From Selenomonas ruminantium subsp. ruminantium ATCC 12561 (GTDB lineage Bacteria > Bacillota > Negativicutes > Selenomonadales > Selenomonadaceae): a DNA stretch of 64,000 bases. The notes under the pieces were generated by a model. It was given only the letters and a program-made list of their open reading frames with translations, was not told where the DNA came from and searched no databases. This document shows, piece by piece, positions 31,254 to 54,820 of this stretch. Position numbers and translations under genes: made by a program. The stretch covers positions 1-64,000 of the forward strand of contig NZ_AUJE01000015.1 of NCBI RefSeq assembly GCF_000424065.1, given 5' to 3'. Position 1 is the first letter of the stretch. Every line of letters begins with the position of its first letter.

Positions 31254-31343
31254 TCTCTCTACCTCCTAAAAATTTCCCCAAAATTAACATTTATGGTTGA
31301 ATTTGAACGTTTTTGGCTTTTTTTGCCTTACGCCCCTATATAA

Positions 31344-31360: not shown

Positions 31361-31373
31361 CTTTGTGTATCAA

Positions 31374-31397: not shown

Positions 31398-31445
31398 GTT
31401 TCACCCGTGTTTTTCACTTATTTTTCATAAAAGTTTTTGCTTTAT

Positions 31446-31495
31446 GATACTATAAGTATTATTTTGATACACTTCAATACACTTTCCGATACTCT
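31446..31495. promoter_or_regulatory. GATAC repeats upstream of the PTS promoter
   Basis: GATAC occurs at 31446-31450, 31466-31470 and, as GATACTCT, at 31488-31495. They lie about 110-160 bases upstream of the expected transcription start, the usual distance for enhancers of sigma-54 activators. The same GATACTCT forms a dyad at the levR start (34394-34425). Confidence 0.45.
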
Positions 31496-31529
31496 ATTAT
31501 ACAAAATGACCTCCATCACGATAAAAAAA

Positions 31530-31563
31530 ATACACTATGACAAATGTCATTGTCATAGTGTAT
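31530..31563 (-). terminator. Terminator of levR
   Basis: ATACACTATGACA and TGTCATAGTGTAT form a 13-base stem followed on the minus strand by a long T-run, 9 bases after the levR stop. Confidence 0.88.
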
Positions 31564-31571
31564 GAACTGTA

Positions 31572-34376: not shown

Positions 34377-34393
34377 CTGTATCACACCCCTTC

Positions 34394-34443: not shown

Positions 34444-35712
34444 TTACTTGAGCAAACCATTATTTTGGGCAATCGTCCCTAAATACCGGCAGCTGGGCTT
34501 TACTCTGCGGTGCATGGTCTGCCTGTCCACCGCAATCAGACCAAAATGCTTGTCAAAGCCCATGGCCCATTCCAGATTATCCATAGAGCTCCAATAGATA
34601 TAGCCCAGCAGAGGTACTCCGTCTTCTACAGCTGCATGCAGCCCCGTCACCGCCTCACGGATAAAATCAATGCGGCGGCTGTCATCCTGCGTGGCAATGC
34701 CGTTTTCCGTAACCATGACCGGCAAGCCTGTTTCCTTATACACACGACGCACGACGGAACTTACTGCCTCCGGACAATAGGGATAACCGCATTCCGTAAG
34801 TTCTTCATCCGCACCATGCGGCACCCGACCATTTGCATCATAGATTTCCCGCTCATAATTCTGCACAGCCGCAAAATCGGCATTCATATAGATATCCTTG
34901 TATTGGCCAAAGTAGCTCTGCCAAACTTTTTCCGCCACCTGTTCTCCGCCCGGAGCGGCACAAACATCCGACAAAGCAAGGCTCACGCCGACTTTGGCCT
35001 GCGGCGCAAACTCCCGCGCGGCTTTGACCGCTTCATTATGTGCCTGCCGGATGATTTCAATATGTTCCGGCTCGGAGGCCATATGAATGGTAAAATAATG
35101 TTCCAAATCCGTTCCACAGGCCTTTGCTGCCTGCTCCCGCCACTCCGGCGCCGTCCAGCCTTCTGCGGCCATGCCGATGGGCGGCACAAAATTCCATTCT
35201 GCAAACAACTGCTTGAGCATGGTGGCAATGTTTATCTCATTCATCGTAATGATATAGGGAATATGTTTTCCCAAGGATTTCAGCACATAGCGGGCATAAC
35301 GGCCAAAGTAATACGGCGTTTTCTCGCCCTTCCAGCCGCCGTATTTCATCAGCCACTGCGGGCTGGTAAAATGATGCAGCGTTACCACAGGAGTGATTCC
35401 ATGTTCCTCACAGGCAGCCAGCACATCAGCATAGTGCGCGATAGCCTCAGCAGGAAATTCACCTTCCCGCGGCTCAATCCGTGCCCATTCAATCGAGAAG
35501 CGATAGGCCTTCAGCCCTGCGCCCGCCATCAGGGCAATATCTTCCCGATAGTGCTGATAATGGTCGCAGGTATGATCCGATTTATCCTTGTAAATGGAAC
35601 CTTCCACATGTTCTTCCGCCCAAATGTCAGAATGGATATTCATGCTCTCTACCTGATGGGCGGCCGTCGCACTGCCCCAAAGAAAATTCTGCGGAAAAAG
35701 CAGCTTACTCAT
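34444..35712 (-). CDS. Glycoside hydrolase family 1 beta-glycosidase
   Basis: Splits beta-glucosides or related beta-glycosides by a retaining mechanism. 422 residues, cytoplasmic (no signal). N-terminal FLWGSATAAHQVE is the GH1 signature; the acid/base Glu is residue 159 in TMNEIN (usually TFNEP) and the nucleophile Glu is residue 336 in VTENG. The change of NEP to NEI is uncommon and may mark a subfamily. It is unlikely to be a 6-phospho-glycosidase because the operon transporter is a symporter, not a PTS. Last gene of the operon. Confidence 0.9.
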   Translation of the reverse strand: MSKLLFPQNFLWGSATAAHQVESMNIHSDIWAEEHVEGSIYKDKSDHTCDHYQHYREDIALMAGAGLKAYRFSIEWARIEPREGEFPAEAIAHYADVLAACEEHGITPVVTLHHFTSPQWLMKYGGWKGEKTPYYFGRYARYVLKSLGKHIPYIITMNEINIATMLKQLFAEWNFVPPIGMAAEGWTAPEWREQAAKACGTDLEHYFTIHMASEPEHIEIIRQAHNEAVKAAREFAPQAKVGVSLALSDVCAAPGGEQVAEKVWQSYFGQYKDIYMNADFAAVQNYEREIYDANGRVPHGADEELTECGYPYCPEAVSSVVRRVYKETGLPVMVTENGIATQDDSRRIDFIREAVTGLHAAVEDGVPLLGYIYWSSMDNLEWAMGFDKHFGLIAVDRQTMHRRVKPSCRYLGTIAQNNGLLK

Positions 35713-35728
35713 GGATTATCGTCCTTTC

Positions 35729-36367
35729 TCATACAGCAATATTTAATAAATCACGAATTTCCTGCAATGCATAAGCCGCCTGTGAAACTTTGGCCGCTTC
35801 ACCAATACCGGCTACCTGCATACCGGCATTTACACCTGCCTGAACGCCTGCCGGTGCATCTTCCACGACCAGACAGTTCTCCGGTTTGGCTCCCAGTTTC
35901 TGTGCAGCCAACAGGAAAACCTCCGGGTCCGGTTTGCTATGCGTGATTTCCGTACCGTCGGCAATGGCATCGAAAGCGTTTTCCAAACCGACCTGCGTTA
36001 AGATGCGCATGGTGTTTTTGCTCGATGACCCCACAGCGATATGCACGGCGTTTTTGCGCAAGCCAGCCAAGGTTTCCCGCACACCTTTCAAGGTATCCTC
36101 TATGGTCAGATTCCCTAAGAGTTCCTGATAATAACGGTTTTTCCGCTGGGCAAGTTCCTCTTTTTCTGCCTGCGTATAGTTTTTTTCCGCCCGCTCTAAA
36201 ATGATTTCCAAACTCGCCATGCGGGATACGCCCCGCAGGCGGTTATTAATCGCTCTATCGAAATAAATGCCTTCTTCATCGGCAATTTTCTTCCATGCCT
36301 GATAATGGTATTCGTCCGTAGACACCAGCACGCCATCCAAATCAAAAATCACATTTTCATATCGCAT
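35729..36367 (-). CDS. pgmB: Beta-phosphoglucomutase
   Basis: A HAD-family enzyme that turns beta-glucose 1-phosphate into glucose 6-phosphate. 212 residues. The nucleophile and acid/base Asp pair are residues 9 and 11 in FDLDGVLVST, followed by a helical cap with LRGVSRMASLEIIL; GSSSKN and KPDPEVFLLAA are also present. Its substrate is normally made by a phosphorylase. No GH65 or GH94 phosphorylase is in the window; the neighbours are GH3 and GH1 genes, which raises the question of which enzyme supplies the substrate. Confidence 0.93.
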   Translation of the reverse strand: MRYENVIFDLDGVLVSTDEYHYQAWKKIADEEGIYFDRAINNRLRGVSRMASLEIILERAEKNYTQAEKEELAQRKNRYYQELLGNLTIEDTLKGVRETLAGLRKNAVHIAVGSSSKNTMRILTQVGLENAFDAIADGTEITHSKPDPEVFLLAAQKLGAKPENCLVVEDAPAGVQAGVNAGMQVAGIGEAAKVSQAAYALQEIRDLLNIAV

Positions 36368-36376
36368 AATCTCACC

Positions 36377-38098
36377 TCAAAATTTCGTCTGCCACATGCC
36401 GCAGAAGGGATCTACCGGACTTTTGCCCACAAATTCACTCTTGCCGACCAGTTTATTGACAATGGCTTTAAGCATGGCCGGAGCTGCCGTATAGCCGTTA
36501 ATCAGCGTTTTTAAGGCAGGCATATCCTGCAAGAGATACGGCGAGCCTGTTGCCACACCGATAACCGGCAGGTCATGGATAAACCAGGGCATATTGGAAG
36601 CCATCGGCCAGTTCCATTCCATGCGCAGAGTGCTCTTGTTGCTGGCCGGCTCAATATTGGCATAGTAGATAACGGCATCATACTTTTTCACAATATCAGC
36701 ACGTTTGATATCAATATAGGCAAAGCGCATAGCCTCTTTATCAAATACATCCACCGTAAAGCCAGCATCCTCCAACAGCGATTTGAACAGCTTGGCACTG
36801 CCGTTGCCAAAATAGCCCCATTCATCACCGAAGACATACAGGAGCAGACGCTTTTGCGTGGCAGGATTCAAGGGCAGGACATTTTGCGTATCCTTGACCA
36901 AGGTTGCCGCTTTGTCTGCGGCATCTTCTGCCCATTCCGTAAACTCATTCCTGCCCAGTACCGCCTGCAAAGCCGATTTCTCCGGCACCAGCGTGTTATT
37001 TTGCTGCCGCAGGTGCAGTTTTAAATGCGCTTTCAAGGCCAAAATCCGCGTAACAGCTTCATCTAAGCGTTTCTCCGTCAAAAGGCCATTTTTAAGCCCG
37101 TCCAGCATAAACTGGAAATCCTCTGCCATATTGCGGTTAAAGAGGAACATATCACAGCCGGCTGCTATGGCACGAGGCACGGACTCCCAGCGGCTCATCG
37201 CATTGGTAAAACCGCCCATCGGCGTAGCATCTGTGATAATCAGGCCGTTAAAGCCCAAATGCTCCCGCAAAAGTCCCTGCAACAGTTCCGGTGACAAGGT
37301 TGCTGGCAGTAAATCTTCCAGCGCTAAATCCGGATTGATTTTCTGCTGCCAGGCCGGCTGCAGGATATGGCCGACCATGACCGATTCTGCACCGGCAGCA
37401 ATCAGCTGTCGATAGATTTCCCCATAGGTATTATCCCATTCTTCAGCAGAGCAGGAATTGATGGTCGGGTGCAGATGCTGGTCGCGATAGTCCATGCCAT
37501 CTCCAGGGAAGTGCTTGATGGCGACCGCCATACCTTCTTCCTGCACACCTTTAGTAAACGCCTTGCTCATGGCAATAACCGTATCCGTATCATCGCCATA
37601 GGTGCGCACATTGGTAATCGGATTAAGATAATTTACATTTCTATCCACAATCGGGGAAAACGCCCAGTTGCAGCCCGTGGCATTGCCTTCTGCCGCCGAT
37701 ACCTTGCCCAAATGATAGGCATGTATTTCATCGCCAGTGGCAGCCATTTCCATGGGATAACCAAAGTATGTGCCTTCCGTCATCACGCCGTTGCCGCCCG
37801 CTTCGAGATTGGCCGCCAGCAGCAGCGGTACAGGCGATTTTTCCTGCAAATAGCGCTGTGCTCCTTGTATTTCCTTGCCCGGCAAGGCACGGAACATCAT
37901 GCCGCCGGGGTGCAGGGTGTTCAAGACCTCCTGCAGGGCCTCCTTATCCGGCCCCGGAGCAATCGGGCAAAAGAGCTGGCCGACTTTCTCTTCAGTGCTC
38001 ATTTTCTCTTTGGTTTCTTCCACCCAACGGATATCCTCATCCGTAAGGTAAAAGGGATTTGCATGTAAATCAATCTTGTTCTTCATCAGGGATTCCAT
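36377..38098 (-). CDS. Glycoside hydrolase family 3 enzyme with a NagZ-type Asp-His dyad
   Basis: 573 residues, cytoplasmic. The GH3 barrel has NPITNVRTYGDD, the loop KHFPGDGMDYRDQH (residues 195-208) and the nucleophile Asp 290 in LIITDATPMGG. The loop keeps the spacing of the NagZ signature KHFPGHGDTxxDSH, so Asp206 and His208 would be the acid/base dyad, rather than the distal Glu of classical GH3 glucosidases. A C-terminal alpha/beta sandwich follows. NagZ-like beta-N-acetylglucosaminidase is possible, but the operon, with beta-phosphoglucomutase next door, suggests a glucoside and perhaps phosphorolysis. The start could be five codons further in. Confidence 0.85.
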   Translation of the reverse strand: MESLMKNKIDLHANPFYLTDEDIRWVEETKEKMSTEEKVGQLFCPIAPGPDKEALQEVLNTLHPGGMMFRALPGKEIQGAQRYLQEKSPVPLLLAANLEAGGNGVMTEGTYFGYPMEMAATGDEIHAYHLGKVSAAEGNATGCNWAFSPIVDRNVNYLNPITNVRTYGDDTDTVIAMSKAFTKGVQEEGMAVAIKHFPGDGMDYRDQHLHPTINSCSAEEWDNTYGEIYRQLIAAGAESVMVGHILQPAWQQKINPDLALEDLLPATLSPELLQGLLREHLGFNGLIITDATPMGGFTNAMSRWESVPRAIAAGCDMFLFNRNMAEDFQFMLDGLKNGLLTEKRLDEAVTRILALKAHLKLHLRQQNNTLVPEKSALQAVLGRNEFTEWAEDAADKAATLVKDTQNVLPLNPATQKRLLLYVFGDEWGYFGNGSAKLFKSLLEDAGFTVDVFDKEAMRFAYIDIKRADIVKKYDAVIYYANIEPASNKSTLRMEWNWPMASNMPWFIHDLPVIGVATGSPYLLQDMPALKTLINGYTAAPAMLKAIVNKLVGKSEFVGKSPVDPFCGMWQTKF

Positions 38099-38111
38099 CT
38101 TTCTTCATTAA

Positions 38112-39560
38112 TTAAAACAGCAAGGCAAAGTCCAAACGGAAAATTTTCTTGCGCACCCCGCCCGGAATCGTATATCCATAAGGGCAAGAAGCATCAACCG
38201 TCCTGCCATACATATAGAACACATCAAAAATCGTATTGTTGATCGGTGACCATTGATAACCAGCCACCCAGCCCCGGAAACCTTCACCCAGGGTACTGAT
38301 ATAATCACCAATCATGCCGCCTGAACCACCGATAATCATGGCATCAGCCGGGGCATTATACCACGCCAATGTGTGTGCATGCTTGCCTTTGACTGGTGGC
38401 CAGGGATTGCCAAATTGCAGCTGTATTTTATAAGCATTCTTGCTTACATCCGAATTGGTATGAACCCAATCTGCAGTCAGCGTAGTATCCTTCCAAATCT
38501 GATGGTCAAAGCCCAGTTCTGTAAATCGGGTGCCCGTACTTTCCCAATTCTTAAACGGGAAGGCTGCATTTCTGGTGTTTGGCTTAGTCTGGTAAACGGC
38601 CTTCACATTGGTCTTGGGCGTCAGTTTATAATCCAGTTCCAATGACCAGAAGTTCTTGTTGACCAGGGCCGGATGCAGATTGTGTGAGCTGAGATTGTTG
38701 GTAAAGTCATTATCCGTATCGGCTTCAATCGAAGTCACCGGTTTGTACTGGGCCAAGGTAAAACGTCCGCTAAGCCGCTTCCCTTTGCCATAGCCGATTT
38801 CAATGCCCTGTATCTTTTCATCATTGAACATCAGGCCATAGCCCATAGTCGTTGCATAACGGCCTACCTTCAGCGAAAAGCCTCTATTGTTATAATCTAC
38901 CCACTGCAGGGCGCCGAGATTGGTAAAATCTGCCTGCTCCGACTTGAAGCTGCGATTAAAGGTCGTACTGACGGTAATCATGGTATGCTTGTCAAAATGA
39001 TATTGTGTATCCACCGACAGCTGCGTGGTTTTCTTCATAATCGGATCACTGGCCACGGCCATGCCATGCACATTATCATAACGGGTACCAAAGTAGCCAT
39101 GGAACTGCACGCGGTCTACCTTTTGCTTCAGTTCCTCAATCTGCGCCCCGATATTTTTCAATTCCTTGCTGTATTCATCCTGCAAAGCCTGAATGATGAT
39201 TTTTTGCTGGGCATCGGCTTGTTCCTGCTTATCCATTGCGCGGGAAATGATAACCGCCATTTCATAGCGGGACAGATTCCTGTCCCCATGGAACATGCCA
39301 TCATCAAAGCCTTCGACCAGCCCCGCCTCAGTGAGCTGCTTTACCGCCTGATAAGACCAATGGCTGGACTTGACATCCGCCAGCGTCTTATGCGGAATAT
39401 CCTTCTTTTGTTCGTTTTTATCTGCCTGTGCCAGCGCATTATTTTCCGCTGCCAGCTGCAGGGCTTTCTCGTTCAGAATTTCGGCACCGGCTGTGCCATT
39501 CAACTGCGATAACAACAGTAAAGAGATACCAAAAAGTGCTGCCTTCTTCATAACTCTCAT
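38112..39560 (-). CDS. OmpM-like outer-membrane porin with SLH domain
   Basis: 482 residues. Signal peptide (about 1-26), an SLH domain (about 55-110; SHWSYQAVKQLTEAGLVEGFD and the RYEMAVII stretch), a short coiled coil (about 112-150) and a long beta-rich barrel ending in LDFALLF with a terminal Phe. In Negativicutes such proteins tether the outer membrane to polyamine-modified peptidoglycan through the SLH domain and form pores. Here it is within a sugar operon, between the transporter and GH3 genes, so it may be a dedicated entry pore for the operon's glycoside. Confidence 0.9.
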   Translation of the reverse strand: MRVMKKAALFGISLLLLSQLNGTAGAEILNEKALQLAAENNALAQADKNEQKKDIPHKTLADVKSSHWSYQAVKQLTEAGLVEGFDDGMFHGDRNLSRYEMAVIISRAMDKQEQADAQQKIIIQALQDEYSKELKNIGAQIEELKQKVDRVQFHGYFGTRYDNVHGMAVASDPIMKKTTQLSVDTQYHFDKHTMITVSTTFNRSFKSEQADFTNLGALQWVDYNNRGFSLKVGRYATTMGYGLMFNDEKIQGIEIGYGKGKRLSGRFTLAQYKPVTSIEADTDNDFTNNLSSHNLHPALVNKNFWSLELDYKLTPKTNVKAVYQTKPNTRNAAFPFKNWESTGTRFTELGFDHQIWKDTTLTADWVHTNSDVSKNAYKIQLQFGNPWPPVKGKHAHTLAWYNAPADAMIIGGSGGMIGDYISTLGEGFRGWVAGYQWSPINNTIFDVFYMYGRTVDASCPYGYTIPGGVRKKIFRLDFALLF

Positions 39561-39620
39561 CCTTTTATATGTTCATGCGTTAATTCTTCAACTTAGGCGC
39601 CCCCTATGCAGGGGAACTTA

Positions 39621-40931
39621 TTATGCTTTTACAGGCTCAGCCTGCAGCTCACCTTCCTTTTTTCCCGCATCTACCTCAGGAATGGGAATTACAGCCAGGA
39701 AGGAAATGATCGAACAGATGGACAACAGAACGAAGAAGAAGGTATAACCATCATCACCCAGCAGGTTAACGCCGACAGCGATAAGCAGCGGAGCCACAAA
39801 ATTAACCAGGGAAGATGCCAGATTGGTCGTGATATTCATAATGGCAATATCCTTGCCCGCATTTTCTTTGCTGGGCAGAATGCGGTTGACCAAAGCATTA
39901 TCTACGGCATTATAGAGACCAAAACCAAAGTTGAAGACAAAGAACCCCGCGATTACCGTCCACAAATCCGTAGCAAAGGCAAAGAGAATCAAGCATACAC
40001 CAGTAATCAGCGACGCCCCCATAACAAAGGGTTTCTGCTTGCGGAATTTATCCGACAGCCAGCCGCCGAAAAGACCTGCCAGCACCATCAGCAAGATGGA
40101 CGCGCCCGTATAAGAACCAATTTCGAAAACTTCGGCTTCAGACAGATGGAATCTGGCCACATAGAAAAGCGTCAGCATGGTAAGACCGGCATTGGAAAAA
40201 TTGATAAAGAGCTTCGTTAAGAGCGCCCAAGTGTATTCTGGATATTTCTTAAAGGACGGATAAAAGTTCTTAAAGCCCGTTTTGAAGGGATTGACAGCGC
40301 CCCCCTGTTCTTTCCGCTGTTCAGCAGGAATATAGGTATCCTTGACCAACAAGGCCGTAACAATACCGGCAATCAGCTGTACTGCACTGACCACGGCGAT
40401 TTTCAATTCGACAGGCGTTGCCGCATAGATACCGATAATAATGGAACCGCTCATGACAAAAATAGGTGCTGCCGAACTCATAATCCCCGAAGCCCGGCCA
40501 AAGCGGTCCTCCTCTACCTGCTCAGGAATCATGGCAAAGCAGGACAAAGATACCATGCCATAGAAGAATTGGGCAATGCACCAGGAAGCCACCAGCATAG
40601 GCATGCTCTGTGCATAGGCCATTAACATCATAAAGATAAAGCCGCCCACAGAACCCGCCACCAGCCAAAAACGGCGGCGCCCCATTTTTACATGGGTCTT
40701 ATCGGCAATCACGCCCCCCAGCGGAGTCAATACTACAATGGCCAGACTGGCAATTCCGGAGGCGATACCAAACGCACTGGTCGTTGCCTCTGCGCCAACT
40801 ACGCTCATAATCTTAAACTGTATAAGTCCGAACATCAGCAAAACCAGTGGTGCAATCGCCGTACCGGCCCCAAGCACCATAGCAGCCATCAGGCGATAAA
40901 ACGGTGTCTTATTCCACTTAATCGTATCCAT
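39621..40931 (-). CDS. GPH-family sugar:cation symporter
   Basis: Major facilitator of the glycoside-pentoside-hexuronide type, 436 residues, about twelve helices. Family features are the loops GGVIADKTHVKMGRRRFWL (between helices 2 and 3) and GGWLSDKFRKQKPF. The C-terminal tail is charged. First gene of the operon followed by the porin, GH3, pgmB and GH1 genes. It probably takes up a beta-linked di- or oligosaccharide intact. Confidence 0.9.
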   Translation of the reverse strand: MDTIKWNKTPFYRLMAAMVLGAGTAIAPLVLLMFGLIQFKIMSVVGAEATTSAFGIASGIASLAIVVLTPLGGVIADKTHVKMGRRRFWLVAGSVGGFIFMMLMAYAQSMPMLVASWCIAQFFYGMVSLSCFAMIPEQVEEDRFGRASGIMSSAAPIFVMSGSIIIGIYAATPVELKIAVVSAVQLIAGIVTALLVKDTYIPAEQRKEQGGAVNPFKTGFKNFYPSFKKYPEYTWALLTKLFINFSNAGLTMLTLFYVARFHLSEAEVFEIGSYTGASILLMVLAGLFGGWLSDKFRKQKPFVMGASLITGVCLILFAFATDLWTVIAGFFVFNFGFGLYNAVDNALVNRILPSKENAGKDIAIMNITTNLASSLVNFVAPLLIAVGVNLLGDDGYTFFFVLLSICSIISFLAVIPIPEVDAGKKEGELQAEPVKA

Positions 40932-41246: not shown

Positions 41247-42374
41247 ATGCGTTATTTCACCACAGTTGCTAATGTTCAAGCGGAAATCAGCCGGTATTTT
41301 CACGCCACTGGCATAAGGGCCAGCGTTCCCCAAGCACTGGTCAGTATCTATAATTCCGGCAAATATTTGGAACAGTTTCCACCGCTGGCCATAGACAAGA
41401 TTTGGGACACCATGGACGATGATGAATTCCTGCATCATGTCAATCAGCTTCCCATTGGCCTTGACCTCATCATTCAAAACGAAACGGAAAACAACAGCAA
41501 CAAGGGCAACCCCATCGGCGAAGACCTGATGTTCTCCTTAGGCAATGACCTCATTGTCTTTAAGGCTTTTAATTACATCAACATCGATATCCATAAGCAT
41601 AATTTCTTTGAAATGGGCTATATCCTGCGCGGTCATTGCCTGCTGACGGTCGAACAGGAAACCATCGACCTGCAGCCCGGACAGTTCTACATCATCGGCC
41701 CCAACGCCCGGCATTGCATTCAGATGGACGATGATGAGTCCGTACTCATCTGCATCGATATCCGCAAGAGTACCTTTGAAAACGCCTTTTTCAATCTGAT
41801 GGCGGGCGAGGATTTGCTCTCCTACTTCTTCCAATCCATTCTCGCCCGTCCAGACTATCCCAATTACATCATCTTCACCAGCAAAAATGAAGAAAATATC
41901 CGCCGCCTGCTGAAGACCTTGATGATGGAAAGTTATTTAGGTGACAGCTACCATAATCTCTGCGGCATCAGCATCGTCAACCTCCTCATGTGCTATATGC
42001 TGCGCCATTACAGTGATACCATTCAGTTCTACAGCTACGATTTTCTCTCCACCCGCGCCCCTTTAATCATGCGCTATATTCAGACCCACTACCAAACCGT
42101 GACCCTGCGGGAGCTTTCCCAGGTCTTCCACTACAATGAAGCCTACCTGTCCACCTTGATCAGCAAGAACGCCGGCATGAACTTTTCCACCCTGCTCAAT
42201 AAACTCAAAACCGGCCGCGCTAAAACCTATCTCGAAACCAGCAATATGAGCGTACAAGAAATCAGCGAAGCCGTAGGCTACAGCTCCGCTGACCATTTCT
42301 CCCGCACCTTCAAACAATACTATAACTGTTCCCCGCAAAAATACCGCATGAACTTCCGGCGGGAAAAAGAATAA
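41247..42374 (+). CDS. AraC-family regulator of the glycoside operon
   Basis: 375 residues. An N-terminal cupin-like sensor (about 110-200, with HKHNFFEMGYILRGHCLLTV and PGQFYIIGPNARHCIQ) and a C-terminal double helix-turn-helix (about 275-370, with LRELSQVFHYNEAYLSTLIS and ISEAVGYSSADHFSRTFKQY). It is divergent from the GPH transporter operon and probably activates it on binding a sugar. The ribosome site AAGGAGG is 14 bases before the ATG, somewhat far. Confidence 0.92.
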   Translation: MRYFTTVANVQAEISRYFHATGIRASVPQALVSIYNSGKYLEQFPPLAIDKIWDTMDDDEFLHHVNQLPIGLDLIIQNETENNSNKGNPIGEDLMFSLGNDLIVFKAFNYINIDIHKHNFFEMGYILRGHCLLTVEQETIDLQPGQFYIIGPNARHCIQMDDDESVLICIDIRKSTFENAFFNLMAGEDLLSYFFQSILARPDYPNYIIFTSKNEENIRRLLKTLMMESYLGDSYHNLCGISIVNLLMCYMLRHYSDTIQFYSYDFLSTRAPLIMRYIQTHYQTVTLRELSQVFHYNEAYLSTLISKNAGMNFSTLLNKLKTGRAKTYLETSNMSVQEISEAVGYSSADHFSRTFKQYYNCSPQKYRMNFRREKE

Positions 42375-42616: not shown

Positions 42617-43108
42617 TTAATGTGTTTGATTCCTATCACCATAAAAATCCATATTATATGATATATACCATGCAATCTCCCCGCCCACCATACAACCTTC
42701 TTCATAATTTGATCTTTTGCAAGTTAAACGTGGTATCTCAAACCATCCATTAGATTCATGTATATACATATGTCTTTCAGATAATACGTCTGACCAAATA
42801 TACTTCCACATTCTGGACGATTCATCACACCATCTGCCTGATGGGTCAAATGTAACCATCGATGCTTGTATCTTGTATTCAGGAGGATTATATTCTAACA
42901 CAGAAACAGTATTCACATCTAGACAAGTCGCGTAACCTTGTCGGAATTGTAAAATAATGTAATTACTACTACCTTTAAAAAAATCGCCATGTTTAATCCA
43001 TCCAGGAATTTTTTTAGATGGAGCGGCATAAGAATCCGCTGTAAAAGCCGACAACAATATCGAACATAATAATAAAAAAAACAGACTTTTAAACAATCGA
43101 ATTTTCAT
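42617..43108 (-). CDS. Small secreted protein, unknown function (type A)
   Basis: 163 residues with a signal peptide (about 1-28, FFLLLCSILLSAFTADSYAA). The mature part has five Cys and a C-terminal block IQASMVTFDPSG...MWKYIW...HMYIHES. This block resembles the protein at 44109-44513 (IKASL...IWKYMW...HSYISSG), so the two are paralogues. No known family recognised. It lies in AT-rich sequence with codon use unlike the sugar operons nearby. Confidence 0.7.
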   Translation of the reverse strand: MKIRLFKSLFFLLLCSILLSAFTADSYAAPSKKIPGWIKHGDFFKGSSNYIILQFRQGYATCLDVNTVSVLEYNPPEYKIQASMVTFDPSGRWCDESSRMWKYIWSDVLSERHMYIHESNGWFEIPRLTCKRSNYEEGCMVGGEIAWYISYNMDFYGDRNQTH

Positions 43109-43346
43109 TAATTATACGCCTCCAAAACCATGTAAATTTTAATCTCGATTCAATTTTATGATATATTTACATACAAGTCAAGAATATTATTTTGAAGTGG
43201 TAATTAAATTCTAAGGACTTAACCGTTTTTTGTATAGTACTGGTCTCACATCAATTGTAAAGCTACAACACATAAAAAATATACATTTTATAGACATTTT
43301 TATATTTTTGTGATATGATTTTTATATATAGAAAGGAGTTGTTTTT

Positions 43347-43883
43347 ATGCGTATTATTTCAAAGATTTTATTGTTAACAGCAGTAATGATTGTCTCATTA
43401 TGCATTACTTGTTTTGCAAAATTACCCAGCAACCAAACATCATTAGGGGGAATCACCTTATTCCAACCAATATCTGATGTATTGAAGGTATATGGCACTC
43501 CCACTTATTTTGACAACAGTAAAATAGAATACGGAACACCTACTACCGTAATTATTGGTAAGACATCAGAATGGACCATAAATGAAGGGAGTGGAGGAAG
43601 TAAAACACCTATTGTAGGTATAATAAGAGTAACCGCCAATAATGGTTTCGCCACGCCTGCCGGAGTTACTGTTGGAATGGATACTGCAGTTCTTTATAAA
43701 GTATATGGGCATCCAGATAGACTAATGAATAAAAAATCTACTCCATATAACATTCCCAAAAGAAATGATTATGATACACTATATATATATTATGGACCAG
43801 CAGGACATAATTTTGCATTCTTTGTCCGCAACGAAAAAATTATTGAAATTTGTTTAGGGCTAGGTATTGGTGCGCTAGGTTAA
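43347..43883 (+). CDS. Small secreted protein, unknown function (type B)
   Basis: 178 residues with a signal peptide (about 1-22) and a clear AAAGGAG ribosome site. The mature part has two similar blocks: GGITLFQPISDVLKVYGTPTYF and, later, GVTVGMDTAVLYKVYGHPDRL, each a stretch ending in VYGxP. Such repeats resemble small exported domains in which the same VYGxP turn recurs, and suggest an internally duplicated fold. Function is unknown. AT-rich and isolated. Confidence 0.7.
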   Translation: MRIISKILLLTAVMIVSLCITCFAKLPSNQTSLGGITLFQPISDVLKVYGTPTYFDNSKIEYGTPTTVIIGKTSEWTINEGSGGSKTPIVGIIRVTANNGFATPAGVTVGMDTAVLYKVYGHPDRLMNKKSTPYNIPKRNDYDTLYIYYGPAGHNFAFFVRNEKIIEICLGLGIGALG

Positions 43884-44108
43884 AATAGAAAATTCTTAAC
43901 ACACATTTTCATTTAGCATAACATACTATTGATAATTATTTATAACACATCTCAAAAACAACGTACTACACGCGTTCGCTAAATGTAATATTCTATTATC
44001 CACAAAATGATATCCTAGAACATTCACTTCTCCTAATCTAAACAAATACACAAAAACATTTACAGCATTGAAATCAACTATAACCAATATAAGAAAAGGG
44101 ACTTTGCG

Positions 44109-45729: not shown

Positions 45730-48333
45730 TTACGCCAGATACCGTACCTCCCATTCTCCGGACCCAAACACCTGACTCGTTCCGTTCTTGAAATTAAGCC
45801 CTTCTGCCGCCTGCACGCTGGCACCTTCCGGCAAAGTCAGCCGTGCCCCGGCATTGGGCGGAACCGTCATTTTGACCGTTATCTCGCGGCCTGAACGTTC
45901 CCATTTTATCGCGGCCTTGCCATAGGGGGTTTCATGGCAGGCCTCGGCAAAATGCAAACTGCCGCCCGGCTGCGGATGGAAATTAATGAGCTTATAGCCC
46001 GGCTCCCGTTCGTCATAATCCAGACCTGCACCATAACGATAGAGCCAGTCACCAATCGCACCATAGGCATAATGATTAAAGGAGTTCATATCGGGACTGC
46101 AGAAACTGCCATCCGGCCGCTTGCCATCCCAATGTTCCCAAATCGTCGTGGCTCCCTGTTTTACCGGATAGAGCCAGCCCGGGAATTCCTCCCGTTCCAA
46201 AAGCTTCCAGGCCGCAGCGGTCTGGCCATTTTCCGACAAGGCTTGACACAGGCAAGGGGTTCCCATAAAGCCTGTCACCAAATGACCATCTTCTTCGAGC
46301 ATATCGGCCAATTCTTTTGCCAGCTTGGGACGTACATCCGCAGGCGCCAGTTTATAGGCCAGCACCATGGCATAGGCGGACTGCGTTTTCACCGTCAATT
46401 CACCTTCCGGCAGATAATTGGCCCGGAAACGACGCAACAACTTTTCCAATTTTTGATTAAACGCCGCTGCTTCCTGCAGATACCCCAAAATTTTGGCACT
46501 GCGCGCCACAATCTCCAACGACACCAGATGATAGACAGAACAAGTAAACGGCGTAGGCGTTGCGCCCAGGGGAGTCTTGCCGTCACCATCCAAGGCCAGC
46601 CAGTCACCAAACTGCATTTTATAGTTAAACCGTCCCTGTTCATCCATGCGAGCATCCATAAAAGAAACCCACTTTTTCATGGAATCATACTGACAGCGCA
46701 GAATGGCTGTATCGCCCGTGGCCAGATAAAGGTTCCACGGTACAATGGTCGCGGCATCCGCCCAGCCAGAAGCCCCATCCATGCCCATGTGCTCAATCAT
46801 CTCCGGCGAGGCCACAGGGGTCAGTACATCCGGTACTACATGGGGAACAGCACCGTTATCGGCCTGCTCTGCGACCAAATCGCCCAGCCATTTCTGATAA
46901 AAAGCATGGGTATTCACGAGGAAATTGGCCGTACTGCTGAAAATCTCTGCATCACCTGTCCAGCCCAGCCGCTCATCACGCTGCGGACAATCGGTGGGCA
47001 CATCCAGGAAATTCCCTTTCAGGCCCCAAAGGATATTGTGCTGCAGCTGATTGATGAGCTTTTCCGAACACGCAAAAGAGCCTGTCTGCGGCATATCCGA
47101 ATGGAGCACCTGAGCCGTGAAATCATCGGCCTGGGCATCTTCCGGCCAATCTTCCAGCCATGCATATTGGAAGCCCTGATAGGTGAAATGCGGCGTAAAT
47201 ACTTCTTCCGCATCACTGCCCTTGATATAAGTAAGGGTTTCCTTGGCTTCCCGCAGATTTTCCAGATAGACATTGCCGTCCTTATCCAGAACTTCAAAGC
47301 AATGCAGTTTTACCTGCGTGCCCTTGGCGCCCCGCACCTTGAACGTTACCCAGCCGGACATATTCTGCCCAAAATCAAGCACGCGTTCGCCTTTCGGGGT
47401 TACCAGCATTTTCTGAACCGGAATCTCCCCAGCCACACGAATAGGGGAAGCCGTCTGCGGCTGCAAATTATTCAGCGGATAATCGACACATTGAACCTTA
47501 TGCCACATACCGGCCTCCGGTTCTGCTTTGCCGGCATCATAGGTTTCCCCACCATAGATTTCTGCGAAAAGCACCGGGCTGTCCGCCCCCAGCCAGCTTT
47601 CATCTGTGGCAAAGACTTCCTCCGTACCATCCGTGTAACGCACATGCAGCTGGCCAAAGAAGGCCGTCTGCTCACCGTAGAGATTGCGCACATGATGGAA
47701 GGTCAGCATGCCCTTGTACCAGCCGGCGCCCATATGCGCCCGCAGTTCATTGCGCCCATTTTTCAGGTATTCCGTAACCTCATAAGTCTGATAAGACAAG
47801 CGCTTCTGATAAGCCGTCCAGCCCGGTGCCAGTTCCTCCCGGCCAATCCGCTGTCCATTGATAAAGAACTGATACAGCCCCAGAGCCGTGGTATAAATTA
47901 CGGCCTGTTCGACCGCTTTATCCAGTTGAATTTCTTTGCGCAGATACGTTCCCTTGGAATTATCCTTGTCCGCAGGCGTTTCTGCTGAAATAAACTTCCC
48001 CTGCCAGTTTTCTGCGATATTTCCCGTCAAAAAGCTGACCGGTTCAGACCACGGACACCATTTCCCCTCGGCAGCCGCCCGCACACGCACATAATAGCGT
48101 CTGCCGCTTTGCAGCTTCACATGAGGTTTTATCCCATTGGAGTCCTTACCAGCCATTTCGCCGCTGTCATAGATTAATTGAGTAAAATCTACTTTTTCTG
48201 CCGCCTGTATCTGAAAAGCGCTCTGCCGGAAATTCTTTTTCTCCGTGGCAAACTGCCAGCTAAGCACCGGAAAGCTCGTCACACCTGCCGCTTCTTCCAT
48301 AAAATCCAGCAAAATCTTCTTGATGGTAAACAT
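45730..48333 (-). CDS. Alpha-L-rhamnosidase, GH78
   Basis: About 867 residues. Releases terminal rhamnose from rhamnosides such as flavonoid glycosides or pectin pieces. N-terminal beta domains, then the catalytic barrel with DVPTDCPQRDERLGWTGDA, the GH78 hallmark holding the acidic catalytic residues, and a C-terminal beta sandwich. No signal peptide, so it acts inside the cell. The start is the ATG at 48333, set by GGGGAGGA; the frame is open 58 codons upstream through a terminator hairpin, which rules that part out. It follows rhaM but has two terminators before it, so it probably has its own promoter. Confidence 0.92.
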   Translation of the reverse strand: MFTIKKILLDFMEEAAGVTSFPVLSWQFATEKKNFRQSAFQIQAAEKVDFTQLIYDSGEMAGKDSNGIKPHVKLQSGRRYYVRVRAAAEGKWCPWSEPVSFLTGNIAENWQGKFISAETPADKDNSKGTYLRKEIQLDKAVEQAVIYTTALGLYQFFINGQRIGREELAPGWTAYQKRLSYQTYEVTEYLKNGRNELRAHMGAGWYKGMLTFHHVRNLYGEQTAFFGQLHVRYTDGTEEVFATDESWLGADSPVLFAEIYGGETYDAGKAEPEAGMWHKVQCVDYPLNNLQPQTASPIRVAGEIPVQKMLVTPKGERVLDFGQNMSGWVTFKVRGAKGTQVKLHCFEVLDKDGNVYLENLREAKETLTYIKGSDAEEVFTPHFTYQGFQYAWLEDWPEDAQADDFTAQVLHSDMPQTGSFACSEKLINQLQHNILWGLKGNFLDVPTDCPQRDERLGWTGDAEIFSSTANFLVNTHAFYQKWLGDLVAEQADNGAVPHVVPDVLTPVASPEMIEHMGMDGASGWADAATIVPWNLYLATGDTAILRCQYDSMKKWVSFMDARMDEQGRFNYKMQFGDWLALDGDGKTPLGATPTPFTCSVYHLVSLEIVARSAKILGYLQEAAAFNQKLEKLLRRFRANYLPEGELTVKTQSAYAMVLAYKLAPADVRPKLAKELADMLEEDGHLVTGFMGTPCLCQALSENGQTAAAWKLLEREEFPGWLYPVKQGATTIWEHWDGKRPDGSFCSPDMNSFNHYAYGAIGDWLYRYGAGLDYDEREPGYKLINFHPQPGGSLHFAEACHETPYGKAAIKWERSGREITVKMTVPPNAGARLTLPEGASVQAAEGLNFKNGTSQVFGSGEWEVRYLA

Positions 48334-48389
48334 ACTGATTCCTCCCCGAATCCATATTGTTTGTGCTTCGTTGCTATTGTAGCATGAAA

Positions 48390-48412
48390 AAAGCCCCATT
48401 TCACGGGGCTTT
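48390..48412 (-). terminator. Second terminator upstream of the GH78 gene
   Basis: AAAGCCCC and GGGGCTTT form an 8-base stem followed by six T residues on the minus strand. Confidence 0.8.
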
Positions 48413-48488
48413 AAGGGACTGCAAAAGAGATGTCGGAAACTGCTAAAAATACACCTTAATCTATTGGGTGCAACAAGCACACAAGCAA

Positions 48489-48516
48489 AAAGGAGCTGCA
48501 AATTCACAGCTCCTTT
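48489..48516 (-). terminator. Terminator of the rha operon after rhaM
   Basis: AAAGGAGCTG and CAGCTCCTTT form a 10-base stem followed by a T-run on the minus strand, eight bases after the rhaM stop. Confidence 0.85.
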
Positions 48517-48858: not shown

Positions 48859-50202
48859 TTATTTATGCGCGACGGCATGCGCATGTGCTTCCGGCTCTAC
48901 CAGCCAGCCATTTTCATCGATTTCATCACCATAGCGATCATGGGTGATTTCATCGAGGGTCTTGCCGCGGTCATCGCCGCCCCAGATGGCACCGGCCAGC
49001 CAGCTTACCACACAGAAACCAATCATCAGCACAGCAGCAATCTGGAAGCCCAGTGCCTCCATGATAAGCGGTACCGCAAAGCCCCAAATAGCGGCCGAAA
49101 ATCTCGTCACAAAGAAGGTAAAGCCCTGCGCGGTCGCACGATAGCGTACGGGGAACAGTTCAGAACTCCAAAGCTGATAGAACTGCTGCTGCATGGAAAA
49201 GCCCCAGACAATCGTGAAGAAGAACAACATCCAGGTCTGCAGCATTTCACCGGGTAGTGCCCAGACAAACCAGCTGATAACCCCCAAGCCGGAGAAAATC
49301 GCGTAAACCTTACGACGATTGAACTTATCGGCCGTATACATAAAGATAATCGTGGTGACAATGCAAACGGCGAAATTCAGGGCCGTCATACCAAGTGCCA
49401 TCGAATTGCTGAGATTGCCTACATGTTCATACACATAGGGCATGAAGAAACCATTGGTACTGGCAGCCAGATTCCAGAAGGCATAAACACAGACACACAG
49501 GGCTACCGTCTTAAAGCTGGTACCGCGGAGAATATCGGCATAGCGGACTTTTTTCTGCTTGATGCCGCGAGCAGCTAGTTCTGCTTCCTGTTTCTTGGCA
49601 GCTGCCCATTCGGTGGATTCCGGCATTTTAAGGCGCTGATACCAAATCCAGGCAGCAACCACAATCAAATGCGCAAAAATCAGGCGGTTACCCAAAAGGC
49701 CAAACATCTCATTCATGGGAATCGAGGCTGCAAACACAACCACGGGGCCAAGCATCCACGCTATCTGTGCCGAACCGCAGTGTTTTGCTCGATTTCTGGA
49801 TGGTGCTTCCTCGGCGATAAATGTCCAGGAAGCCACCACATCAGCACCGACCATCAAACCGACAATTACATAACCCAAAAGGAACATCGGATAATTAGTT
49901 GCCAGACAGATAATGGCCACACCAATCATATAAATCAAAAGTGCCCAGTTATACACGAACTTACGACCATACTTGTCGCAAATCTTGCCACCGATAAGTG
50001 CACCTATCGCCGCACCACCGGTATTGGAGGATAATGCAGCCAAGAGCCCCATCTGCACACTGCTCATGCCCAGATAGTCCTGCCACATACTCAGGCCTGA
50101 AGCCCCCGCTACAATGGAGCCGGCATCAATGTAACTGATGAGACCGGCAATCAGGGTCTTTTTCCAGGCAGACATGTTGTAATCCAGTTCTACGTTTAAC
50201 AC
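48859..50202 (-). CDS. MFS transporter, probable L-rhamnose importer
   Basis: 447 residues, twelve predicted helices. Sugar-porter features include GGKICDKYGRKFVY between helices 2 and 3 and a long cytoplasmic loop after helix 6. The C-terminus is charged and His-rich. No RhaT or ABC rhamnose transporter is nearby, so this gene, within the rha operon between rhaD and rhaM, is the likely rhamnose carrier. Confidence 0.88.
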   Translation of the reverse strand: MLNVELDYNMSAWKKTLIAGLISYIDAGSIVAGASGLSMWQDYLGMSSVQMGLLAALSSNTGGAAIGALIGGKICDKYGRKFVYNWALLIYMIGVAIICLATNYPMFLLGYVIVGLMVGADVVASWTFIAEEAPSRNRAKHCGSAQIAWMLGPVVVFAASIPMNEMFGLLGNRLIFAHLIVVAAWIWYQRLKMPESTEWAAAKKQEAELAARGIKQKKVRYADILRGTSFKTVALCVCVYAFWNLAASTNGFFMPYVYEHVGNLSNSMALGMTALNFAVCIVTTIIFMYTADKFNRRKVYAIFSGLGVISWFVWALPGEMLQTWMLFFFTIVWGFSMQQQFYQLWSSELFPVRYRATAQGFTFFVTRFSAAIWGFAVPLIMEALGFQIAAVLMIGFCVVSWLAGAIWGGDDRGKTLDEITHDRYGDEIDENGWLVEPEAHAHAVAHK

Positions 50203-50305: not shown

Positions 50306-51124
50306 TTAATCCAGCAAATCGGTATTCAGGTCAATATTAAACTCTTTGGCCAAATCCAGGAAATTCTCCTTGGTGATGGTCTGTTTCTTGCCGCCCATGG
50401 AACGGACTTTCACACAGATTTCCGCGGCTTTTTCCACCGTATCCATCAGGCCAAAGGCTTCGTCGAAGTCATCGCCACAGACAAAGAGCCCGTGATGTGC
50501 CCAAACGACTACGCGATATTTTTCCATGAGTTTTGTTGACGCATCAGCAATGGCCTTGCCGCCGGGCACCATCCAGGGAACGACGCCCAAACCTTCCGGG
50601 AAAATCACGGGGTCTTCGGTCGCCATTTCCCAAAGTTCCCGAGTGAATTCCTTGTCGTTCAGCGGCAGAACAAAGGTCAAAGCAATGAGGTTAGTCGGAT
50701 GGGCATGATAGATAATGCGGTTTTTGCCATCCGTCAGCTTCTTTTTAAGCTCATGATTCGCCAAATGGGTGGGCAATTCGCTGGTGGGGCGGCCGCCCTT
50801 GGCCAGCCCCCAGACGATCCCATAGTTTTCGCCCTTTTCATCAATTTTAATCAGGGCCACGTTTTCCTCAGGGGCAAGTTCTACATTGCGCATATACTTG
50901 CCGCTCCCCGTGACGAGGAAGTATTCCCCGGCCAGCCCCGGCACCGTGTTGCCGATGGGGAGCCATTCTTCTACCTCATGCAGGCAGTCCTTCACGGACT
51001 CCACTTCACTTGCCGGCACACGATAAGTCAGATTGCCGCCATTGCGTTCATGCCAGCCTTTCTTGAATGCATCTGCGGTCAGGCGGATAAAGCCTTCCAT
51101 AAATTTTGCTGCTTTGATATCCAT
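50306..51124 (-). CDS. rhaD: Rhamnulose-1-phosphate aldolase
   Basis: A zinc-dependent class II aldolase that splits rhamnulose 1-phosphate into dihydroxyacetone phosphate and L-lactaldehyde. 272 residues, near the E. coli length. Zinc ligands are visible in YHAHPTNLIAL and WAHHGLF; the N-terminal ERNGGNLTYRV is typical. Located after rhaA with a 16-base gap. Confidence 0.95.
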   Translation of the reverse strand: MDIKAAKFMEGFIRLTADAFKKGWHERNGGNLTYRVPASEVESVKDCLHEVEEWLPIGNTVPGLAGEYFLVTGSGKYMRNVELAPEENVALIKIDEKGENYGIVWGLAKGGRPTSELPTHLANHELKKKLTDGKNRIIYHAHPTNLIALTFVLPLNDKEFTRELWEMATEDPVIFPEGLGVVPWMVPGGKAIADASTKLMEKYRVVVWAHHGLFVCGDDFDEAFGLMDTVEKAAEICVKVRSMGGKKQTITKENFLDLAKEFNIDLNTDLLD

Positions 51125-51140: not shown

Positions 51141-52400
51141 TCAAATGCGCTTTAACTGCACATTTTCCTCATATTCTTCAATCTGACGGAACCATTCGCC
51201 ATCCTGCGGTGCACCATTGCGGCTGCAGAACTCTGCCCAAATATCGCCGAGCGGCAAGGTCTTTAATTCTTCCTGCACCACCATCAACTTGCTGAACTGG
51301 CCTTTATCCTGCAGGGCCTTGAGTTCTTCTACCGGCTGCAACATGGCAAAGAGCAGGGCCTTCTGGAAGTTACGGTAGCCGACAGTCCAGGCCGATACGC
51401 GGTTAATGGAGGCATCGAAATAATCCAGAGCCATCTTCACCCGGCCATCCAGGCCGCCGCAGCGTACGATTTCCCGGGCAATTTCCTTCGTTTCATCATC
51501 AAAGAGCACCACATGGTCGCTGTCCCAGCGCACAGGCCGTGTTACATGCAGAGCGATTTCATCAAAGAAGGTCAGCAGAGCCGGAATCTTGTCACTGACC
51601 ACTTCCGTGGGATGATAATGACCGTTATCCATCAGTGGAATGCACTTATCCTTGTTCATGGCGGCATAGGTCAGCGAGAACTCGCCGCTGCCGGCGGTAT
51701 AAGATTCCACGCCAATGCCGAAGACCTTGCTTTCCACGCAGGGTTTTACCTTGTTAAAATCAAAGGGTTCAGAAAGAATGGCGTCAATGCTTTCCTTATA
51801 GCGCTTGCGAGGGCCAAGGCGGTCGCCGGGAATATCCTTGAAGCCGTCACCGGTCCAAATGTTCATGACACAGGGCTGTCCCAGTTCCTCCGCCAGATAA
51901 GAGCTGATACGGATAGAGGCCTTGCCATGCTCAATCCAAAATTTGCGCGTTTCCTCATTTGCGGAAGACAAGGTCAGCGGGTCGCATTTGGGATGGGAAA
52001 AGAAGGTCGGATTAAAGTCGCAGCCCAGGCCTCTTTCCTTGCAGAACTGCACCCATTTGGCAAAGTGTTTCGGTTCGAGCTTATCCCGGTCTACCCATTC
52101 GCCCTTGTCGAAGATAGCATAGCTGGCATGCAGATTCATCTTGGGCTTGCCCGGCACCAGACTGATGACCTTGTCGATATCGGCCATCAGTTCTTCCGGC
52201 GTGCGTGCACGCCCCGGATAATTACCCGTGGTCTGGATGCCGCCGGTCAGCGGTTTATTCGGGTCTGTATCAAAGCCCCGCACATCATCCCCCTGCCAGC
52301 AATGCAGGGAAATGCTGACGTTTTTGAGTTTTTCCAAAACCTTTTCCACATCAATGCCCAGGGCAGCATATTTTTTCACAGCTTCTTCAAAACGAGACAT
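51141..52400 (-). CDS. rhaA: L-rhamnose isomerase
   Basis: Converts L-rhamnose to L-rhamnulose with divalent metal. 419 residues, the usual length. Family features: SLHCWQGDDVRGFD, GIQTTGNYPGRA, HASYAIF and MDNGHYHPTEVVSDKI, which include metal ligands. Located 14 bases after rhaB. Confidence 0.96.
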   Translation of the reverse strand: MSRFEEAVKKYAALGIDVEKVLEKLKNVSISLHCWQGDDVRGFDTDPNKPLTGGIQTTGNYPGRARTPEELMADIDKVISLVPGKPKMNLHASYAIFDKGEWVDRDKLEPKHFAKWVQFCKERGLGCDFNPTFFSHPKCDPLTLSSANEETRKFWIEHGKASIRISSYLAEELGQPCVMNIWTGDGFKDIPGDRLGPRKRYKESIDAILSEPFDFNKVKPCVESKVFGIGVESYTAGSGEFSLTYAAMNKDKCIPLMDNGHYHPTEVVSDKIPALLTFFDEIALHVTRPVRWDSDHVVLFDDETKEIAREIVRCGGLDGRVKMALDYFDASINRVSAWTVGYRNFQKALLFAMLQPVEELKALQDKGQFSKLMVVQEELKTLPLGDIWAEFCSRNGAPQDGEWFRQIEEYEENVQLKRI

Positions 52401-52414: not shown

Positions 52415-53836
52415 TTAAAACGATAATTTTCCTTCCACAGGCGAAACCGCAAAGGATTTTGCCACCACCTGCCGGGCTTCATGCAAGTCGGCAAAGCAGT
52501 TGTCTTTAAGCATCTGTGCCATTAAATTGCCTACAGCCGTCGCCTCTATGGGGCCGGCATAGACCTCTTTGCCCGTTTCCGTTGCCAGCAGGGCATTCAG
52601 GAACTTATCCTGGCAGCCGCCGCCCACCACATGAATCCGGGAATATGTTTTGCCCGTGAGTTCCTCAATCTCTGCCACGGTCTGCGCATAACATCTGGCC
52701 AGGCTCATGTATACGCAATACAGGATTTCGCCTTCTGTTTCCGGCACTTCCTGACCATGTTCCCGACAATAATCCTTTATCGCGCCAATCATGCTTTCCG
52801 GTGCCAGGAAACGGTCATCATTCACATTGACCACTGAAGTGAAGTACCTGCCGATATAGGCCAGCTGATAAAGTTCTTCAAAGGTGTACTTATGCTTGAA
52901 TTCACGCCGCAGGGACTGCATCATCCACATGCCCATGATGTTTTTCAGATAACGGTAGCGGTAATGATAGCCGCCCTCGTTGGTAAAGTTATGCTCCCGG
53001 CTCTTTTCCGTACAATCGGGAATCAGTCGTTCGATGCCCATCAGCGACCAGGTGCCGGAACTCAGGAAAATCGCATCCTCAGCACTGGTCGGCACCGCCA
53101 TGACCGCCGCACCGGTATCATGCGTGGCCGGCAAGACCACTTCAGTCTGAAAACCAGCCTCGTTGGCAATCTCCGCTGTTAAGCTGCCTACCACATCTTT
53201 CGGCATATGCAGCTTGCCAAAGATTTTGGTCGGCAGGCCCAATTTTTCCAGCAGTTCATAATCCCAATCCTGCGTCTCAGCATTGACCAGCTGCGTGGTT
53301 GTCGCATTGGTATATTCATTGACCATCTGCCCGGTCAGCAGATAATGCAAATACTCCGGAATCATCAGGAAATGTTCTGCCTGCGCCAAAAGCTCCGGCT
53401 GCGTCTTTTTTATCGCCATGAGCTGATAGATGGAATTAAAGAGCTGCTTTTGAATCCCATTGCGGCTATACAGCTCGCTTTCGCCAATTACCCGGTAGAC
53501 TTCCTCGTCCATACCACGGGTTCGGCTGTCACGATAAGCGACGGTATCGCCGAGCAGTTTTCCCTCCTTATCCAACAAGACGAAATCAACGCCCCAGGTA
53601 TCAATGGAAAGGCTTGCCGGAATGCGGTTCAACTTCCCGCACTCCTTGATTCCGGCCTTTACCTCATTGAATAGATGTTCAATATCCCAGCAAAGATGAC
53701 CGTTTTTCCTGACCAGCTTATTTTCAAAACGATAGATTTCTTCAATGCGTATCTTGCCGTTTTCCAGCCAGCCCAAAATATGCCGCCCGCTGGAGGCACC
53801 GATATCAATGGCCAGATAATATTTACGCTGTGCCAC
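52415..53836 (-). CDS. rhaB: Rhamnulokinase
   Basis: FGGY-family kinase that makes rhamnulose 1-phosphate. About 473 residues. The N-terminal phosphate site is AIDIGASSGRH, with SIDTWGVDFVLLD and LPATHDTGAAVMAVP further on, and a C-terminal VVGGGCQDKFLNAL. The start is GTG at 53836, set by AGGAG eight bases upstream; the nine codons further upstream precede the ribosome site. First gene of the rha operon. Confidence 0.95.
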   Translation of the reverse strand: MAQRKYYLAIDIGASSGRHILGWLENGKIRIEEIYRFENKLVRKNGHLCWDIEHLFNEVKAGIKECGKLNRIPASLSIDTWGVDFVLLDKEGKLLGDTVAYRDSRTRGMDEEVYRVIGESELYSRNGIQKQLFNSIYQLMAIKKTQPELLAQAEHFLMIPEYLHYLLTGQMVNEYTNATTTQLVNAETQDWDYELLEKLGLPTKIFGKLHMPKDVVGSLTAEIANEAGFQTEVVLPATHDTGAAVMAVPTSAEDAIFLSSGTWSLMGIERLIPDCTEKSREHNFTNEGGYHYRYRYLKNIMGMWMMQSLRREFKHKYTFEELYQLAYIGRYFTSVVNVNDDRFLAPESMIGAIKDYCREHGQEVPETEGEILYCVYMSLARCYAQTVAEIEELTGKTYSRIHVVGGGCQDKFLNALLATETGKEVYAGPIEATAVGNLMAQMLKDNCFADLHEARQVVAKSFAVSPVEGKLSF

Positions 53837-53882
53837 TTTCTCAACTCCTCGCGCCAAACTCATCTTTAATCCAATAATGTTG

Positions 53883-54061: not shown

Positions 54062-54820
54062 ATGTTAGGTATTGAACGGCGCCAATTAATTATGGATAAA
54101 ATTCAACAGGAAAAGAAAGTCTATGTCTCCGAGCTGAGCCAGCTCTTTTCCGTGACGGAAGAAACCGTGCGGCGGGATTTGGAGAAGCTGGAAGGCGAAA
54201 ATTTCCTGCGCCGCAGCTACGGCGGGGCTGTACTCAATGAGCAAAAAGCCAGCGAGGATTTATCCTTCCTCAAACGCAGCACCATCAACAGCGAAGACAA
54301 GGAATATATCGCCCGCAAAGCTCGTGAACTCATCAGCGATGGCGATACCATCATGGTGGATTCCAGTACCACCTGTCTGGCACTGCTACAACAATTAAAA
54401 GAGCACAAAAACATCACCATTATCACCAACTCCATCCGTCTGGCCTATGACTTTGCGGCGGCCCCCTTCCGCATCATCTCCACTGGCGGCAATCTGCGGC
54501 CCAACTCACTGGCACTTACCGGAGCCGCCACCTGCAATGCACTCGAGCGCTACTGCGCCGACATTGCACTCATCAGCTGCAAAGGCTTACACCAGCAGTT
54601 TGGCGTGATGGAATCCAACGAGGACGAGTCCGTAGTCAAACAGGTCATGCTGCAGCAAGCAAAAAAATCCCTGCTGCTCCTCGACCACTCCAAATTCGAC
54701 AAAACCGCCTTTGTCAAGACCTGCGATTTACAGGATATTGATACGCTCGTCACCGACAAGCAGCCCGATGCTCAATGGCAAAAACTGCTGGTGCAAAAAC
54801 AAGTAACACTTATCTGTTAA
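54062..54820 (+). CDS. DeoR-family regulator of rhamnose use
   Basis: 252 residues. N-terminal winged helix (VYVSELSQLFSVTEETVRRD, residues 20-39, and RRSYGGAVL) and a C-terminal sugar-phosphate sensor domain with DSSTTCLAL, TGGNLRPNSLALTG and LLLDHSKF. It is divergent from the rhaBAD operon and is therefore the probable repressor, responding to a rhamnose phosphate. Similar proteins are called RhaR in some Firmicutes. Confidence 0.92.
   Translation: MLGIERRQLIMDKIQQEKKVYVSELSQLFSVTEETVRRDLEKLEGENFLRRSYGGAVLNEQKASEDLSFLKRSTINSEDKEYIARKARELISDGDTIMVDSSTTCLALLQQLKEHKNITIITNSIRLAYDFAAAPFRIISTGGNLRPNSLALTGAATCNALERYCADIALISCKGLHQQFGVMESNEDESVVKQVMLQQAKKSLLLLDHSKFDKTAFVKTCDLQDIDTLVTDKQPDAQWQKLLVQKQVTLIC

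Follow-up and report, generated by a model that had tools for sequence, protein, structure and literature searches.

The 64,000-nucleotide window from Selenomonas ruminantium subsp. ruminantium ATCC 12561 carries a run of five minus-strand genes at the coordinates given in a preliminary description of this DNA. In order, these code for an MFS/GPH-like sugar transporter (39621..40931; PF07690 and PF13347, with the TIGR00792 gph model under its cut-off), an outer-membrane porin with an SLH domain (38112..39560; PF00395, with an iron-uptake-porin subfamily model under its cut-off), a GH3 protein (36377..38098) predicted from its match to 5VQD, its DQH signature and its place in a tree to be a retaining beta-glucoside phosphorylase of the BglP type, a beta-phosphoglucomutase, PgmB (35729..36367), and a GH1 beta-glycosidase (34444..35712; PF00232 at 242 bits, with 4R27 as nearest solved structure, matched over its full length). 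The intergenic gaps are, in the same order, 60, 13, 9 and 16 bases, and pgmB, previously placed ten bases 3' of the GH3 gene, was correctly located to within one base. The GH1 protein, last in the run, is intact, with the TMNE and VTENG catalytic motifs and the DNLEW motif of enzymes acting on unphosphorylated glucosides, which fits the presence of a symporter rather than a PTS. An AraC-type regulator (41247..42374, plus strand; PF12833 and PF02311) diverges from the run, is kept beside it in relatives and is its probable activator. Promoter and terminator scans gave results near shuffled expectation.

Several other genes surround the run. Immediately 3' of the GH1 gene, and in the same orientation, comes the gene of a DagR/LevR-type sigma-54 activator (NF047795 at 569 bits, under cut-off), with a mannose-family PTS gene set 3' of it (together 28604-34385). 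Farther along, three GGDEF-type proteins in a row (22246-27416), alike in length and layout, look like tandem duplicates. On the other side, four small open reading frames (42617-45177), most with an apparent signal peptide, stand between the AraC gene and the GH78 gene described below; the last of them (44731-45177) is kept in S137 and UBA3715.

Past the divergent AraC gene lies a set of genes for rhamnoside use that was absent from the preliminary description. It comprises an alpha-L-rhamnosidase of family GH78 (45730..48507; PF17389 at 360 bits, solved homologues 3W5M and 6GSZ), an MFS transporter possibly for rhamnose (48859..50202; PF07690 and PF00083), a RhaD-like class II aldolase, or rhamnulose-1-phosphate aldolase, assigned from PF00596 and its position in the rha cluster (50306..51124), the L-rhamnose isomerase RhaA (51141..52400; PF06134 at 583 bits) and a RhaB-like FGGY kinase, or rhamnulokinase (52415..53863; PF00370 and PF02782), all on the minus strand, together with a plus-strand DeoR-type regulator of the rhamnose cluster (54062..54820; PF00455 and PF08220). 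This set of GH78 and rha genes, in unchanged order, is also present in S. ruminantium S137, where GH78 and the rha genes are farther apart. Another GH78-like protein, short at 520 amino acids, is encoded by a gene overlapping that of a GPH-type transporter (55264-58207), and with the divergent AraC regulator beside it (58351-59412) it forms a further rhamnoside locus. No signal peptide is evident on the GH3, PgmB, GH1 or GH78 proteins, which would place the reaction in the cytoplasm, with its presumably abundant phosphate.

The GH3 protein scores 218 bits against PF00933, and its motif KHFPGDGMDYRDQH contains D206 and H208 with a glutamine at residue 207; the Asp-His dyad reported earlier for this protein is real. 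The usual GH3 nucleophile is D290, in the sequence TDAT, and D206, H208 and D290 all align with 5VQD, as does Q207 with a glutamine of that structure. This entry is by far the best solved relative, matched by phmmer over residues 12-572 at 503 bits and E 1e-149; the top NagZ match reaches E 1e-46. 5VQD was deposited as BglX, a beta-glucoside phosphorylase, and a review counts it, under the name BglP, as one of the two GH3 phosphorylases that have been characterised (PMC8950772).

An alignment of 48 proteins and a maximum-likelihood tree allowed us to place the protein among its relatives. It is about 44% identical to BglP/BglX over the full length, and 26 proteins, the window protein and BglP among them, form one clade with 100/100 support. 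The window protein carries the D-x-R-D-Q-H signature of the BglP clade: D203, R205, N214, W221 and G226 are found in 26 of 26 members and Q207 in 25, and none of these six residues occurs in any of the 22 NagZ-type proteins, all of which have D-S-H, D-T-H or D-P-H where the window GH3 and BglP have D-Q-H. By its catalytic loop, which is not D-S/T/P-H, and by its place in the tree apart from NagZ, the protein stands outside the NagZ type, and a role as NagZ in peptidoglycan recycling was ruled out by clade and signature. The one exception at residue 207, from Subdoligranulum (plasmid 12; L067:8965-10764), has D-A-H instead of D-Q-H, possibly a change of specificity. A 2018 study of BglP reportedly found that an active-site glutamine governs the preference for glucosides over N-acetylglucosaminides, and this residue would correspond to the glutamine of D-Q-H. 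The close relatives of the window protein come from rumen genomes of S. ruminantium; a scan of one genome collection returned only these and NagZ-like matches, and the diverse GH3 relatives came from a plasmid collection.

PgmB passes the TIGR01990 equivalog model at 250.4 bits (cut-off 189.4), matches the solved beta-phosphoglucomutases 3NAS, 4GIB and 1LVH, and has the catalytic aspartates of the DxD motif (DLD, within FDLDGV at residues 8-13) aligned with 3NAS and 4GIB. It is the only beta-phosphoglucomutase over the TIGR01990 cut-off in the genome. The operon had been said to contain no other phosphorylase; this is correct, and for GH65 and GH94 it extends to the whole genome: a search for genes of both families found none, so that a hidden member of either was rejected as the source of beta-glucose 1-phosphate and neither occurs in the same regulon.

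Recurrence of the GH3-PgmB pair in other genomes, proposed as a check in the preliminary description, was found both within the Selenomonadaceae and in other Firmicutes. A D-Q-H GH3 gene occurs in seven of 189 Selenomonadaceae genomes and a TIGR01990 pgmB gene in the same seven; the probability of this under independence, 6.5e-13, overstates the evidence, as five of the seven genomes belong to one genus. GH3 and pgmB are neighbours in each of the seven, with the order reversed in one, and the single GH65 gene among the 189 genomes belongs to a genome lacking the pair. Beyond the Selenomonadaceae, Carnobacterium (GH1-GH3-PgmB), Melissococcus and Enterococcus raffinosus (both GH3-GH78-PgmB) and Subdoligranulum (GH3, sulfatase genes, PgmB) also have the pair, and one representative PgmB from each of these four passes TIGR01990. 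Among the 16 wide-flank control loci with NagZ-type or more distant GH3 genes, none has a pgmB gene nearby.

Gene identities, clade, catalytic residues, co-occurrence and context, all read from the sequence, make it very probable that this small group of genes serves to cleave plant sugar compounds by means of phosphate, not water. Its role is best read as the catabolism of imported plant beta-glucosides in an S. ruminantium-type rumen bacterium. That the GH3 protein is a retaining beta-glucoside phosphorylase feeding PgmB is highly likely, and the earlier proposal that predicted GH3 phosphorolysis yields beta-glucose 1-phosphate for PgmB gains support from the homology to BglP, the co-occurrence among 189 genomes and the lack of GH65 and GH94 genes. 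From these lines of evidence we infer phosphorolysis itself and the anomer of its product.

In the proposed mechanism, the porin and the transporter would carry a small glycoside, still intact, into the cytoplasm. Any rhamnose cap would be cut off there by the nearby GH78 enzyme, and the freed rhamnose would be processed via RhaA, RhaB and RhaD. The GH3 enzyme would then act by double displacement, with D290 forming a glucosyl-enzyme and H208 serving as acid/base with D206 as its partner; attack on the glucosyl-enzyme by phosphate, not water, would release beta-glucose 1-phosphate. PgmB would convert this into glucose 6-phosphate, saving the ATP of glucokinase. The intact GH1 enzyme of the run could be an alternative cleaver of the glucoside, and would hydrolyse those glycosides that GH3 refuses.

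The identity of the enzyme is strongly supported and that of its substrate moderately so. The presence of GH78 near the pair in the window, and within the GH3-PgmB run of relatives, directs attention to beta-glucosides capped with rhamnose, for instance flavonoid rutinosides. The run of RUG072 has its GH78 gene immediately after pgmB, and those of Melissococcus and E. raffinosus have it between the GH3 and pgmB genes. A study of cows counts Selenomonas among the rumen bacteria equipped with glycosidases for each of the two bonds of rutin (PMC8780962). We infer that rhamnosyl-beta-glucosides of the rutin type have close to an even chance of being the substrate. The full route, in which such compounds, flavonoid rutinosides for example, would be decapped by an intracellular GH78, phosphorolysed by a retaining GH3 and passed to a dedicated PgmB, is put forward tentatively.

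A phosphorylase acting mainly on a glucose disaccharide or a cello-oligosaccharide, the rhamnose genes being mere neighbours, is a serious alternative, although we put it somewhat short of an even chance. It agrees with the window, where GH78 lies outside the GH3 run in a separate transcription unit, and with Carnobacterium, where the pair is accompanied by GH1 and a PTS without GH78. Against it, GH78 is found in the GH3-PgmB run of three genera in differing orders, and no endoglucanase-type or cellodextrin gene was seen in the run of the window. In view of the adjoining GH78 and rha genes and the GH78 in the run of relatives, plant beta-glucosides that bear rhamnose are preferred over the cello-, gentio- and laminari-oligosaccharides first proposed as substrates.

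Rhamnose is not a constant companion of the pair, since sulfatases take the place of GH78 in Subdoligranulum and in a Selenomonadaceae relative of another genus. In both, sulfatases and a radical-SAM/SPASM protein, a candidate sulfatase-maturating enzyme, surround the pair (L059:5765-17295 and L078:7887-15919, respectively). A second class of substrates may consist of sulfated beta-glucosides, and these loci suggest a common scheme of cap removal followed by phosphorolysis of the glucoside. A sulfatase is also encoded near a D-Q-H-type GH3 gene in Sphingobium (L071).

It is improbable that the GH3 protein is an ordinary hydrolase, either a beta-glucosidase or a beta-N-acetylglucosaminidase, and that PgmB is present for another reason. 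Whether the His dyad means phosphorolysis is disputed (PMC6572805, PMC6987092). LpqI of mycobacteria (PMC6572805) and RmNag3 (PMC6987092) are NagZ-type GH3 proteins with the dyad that were measured as hydrolases without a useful effect of phosphate, and the enzyme of H. seropedicae is cited as a further GH3 hydrolase with the dyad that phosphate does not affect (PMC6987092). As the dyad is common to NagZ hydrolases, it is by itself no sign of a phosphorylase; its presence in the window protein stands, its diagnostic value does not, and it was rejected as sole evidence on the data for LpqI and RmNag3. An ordinary hydrolase would also agree with the 13 of 25 D-Q-H clade members, mostly alphaproteobacterial, in whose fetched DNA no pgmB gene was found nearby (14 of the 26 in the tree with BglP added, the flanks of which are outside the count of 25); these members may have other routes for the sugar phosphate, or some of them may be hydrolases. 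The measured hydrolases, however, are of the NagZ type, whereas the window protein lacks Ser, Thr or Pro at residue 207 and groups with BglP; it is the glutamine of D-Q-H and the clade, not the dyad, that distinguish it in sequence. A hydrolase would moreover leave PgmB with no evident substrate in a genome that has no GH65, and would leave aside the exact co-occurrence in the family. The case for a phosphorylase accordingly rests on clade and genomic evidence, the dyad argument alone being weak. Finally, it is very improbable that PgmB receives its substrate from an unlinked phosphorylase of a further family: the genome search covered GH65 and GH94, but to our knowledge the established sources of beta-glucose 1-phosphate are GH65 and GH3, and the GH3 gene is present and adjacent to pgmB in all seven genomes.

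If GH3 indeed feeds PgmB, the BglP group would gain a physiological role, namely to break down plant glycosides at a saving of energy in anaerobes, for which a single ATP per glucose counts. If rhamnosyl-beta-glucosides are the substrates, bacteria of the rumen, and others associated with bees and the gut, would also possess a phosphorolytic route for flavonoid-type glycosides. A 2022 review lists only two characterised phosphorylases in GH3, a very large family (PMC8950772), and the D-Q-H signature combined with linkage to PgmB offers a simple genomic test for telling phosphorylases from hydrolases within it. GH3 phosphorylases are also of use for making beta-sugar phosphates. No published account of a GH3-PgmB pathway was found in the literature searched, which excluded the primary BglP paper, and priority is uncertain; searches for literature connecting flavonoids and rhamnosidase with phosphorolysis turned up nothing of relevance.

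This type of enzyme has been described before but is rare, and the pathway looks like phosphorolytic sugar use in which a retaining GH3 enzyme, in place of GH65, supplies PgmB. In the pathways built on GH65, maltose, trehalose and kojibiose phosphorylases provide beta-glucose 1-phosphate for a dedicated PgmB. These enzymes are inverting and act on alpha-glucosides, whereas the window GH3 is predicted to be retaining, has a different fold and would act on beta-glucosides. Nag3 of Cellulomonas fimi, a GH3 N-acetylglucosaminide phosphorylase with a His/Asp dyad and retaining phosphorolysis (PMC8950772), is likened to it by description and not by sequence, and prefers a GlcNAc disaccharide of peptidoglycan recycling. 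NagZ-type proteins such as B. subtilis NagZ (3BMX) and LpqI have the GH3 fold and the Asp-x-His dyad in common with the window protein, but differ from its D-Q-H by D-S/T/P-H and by the lack of all six clade residues. The nearest system is BglP/BglX (AUG44408.1; PDB 5VQD, 5VQE), from a metagenomic library, which has the same full-length architecture, a KHFPGDG.DYRDQH motif identical save one residue, the TDAT nucleophile region and the C-terminal GKSPVDPF.G.W motif. In contrast to BglP, which comes from metagenomic DNA and was compared as a protein, the window GH3 sits with its own PgmB, porin and symporter, with a rhamnosidase nearby.
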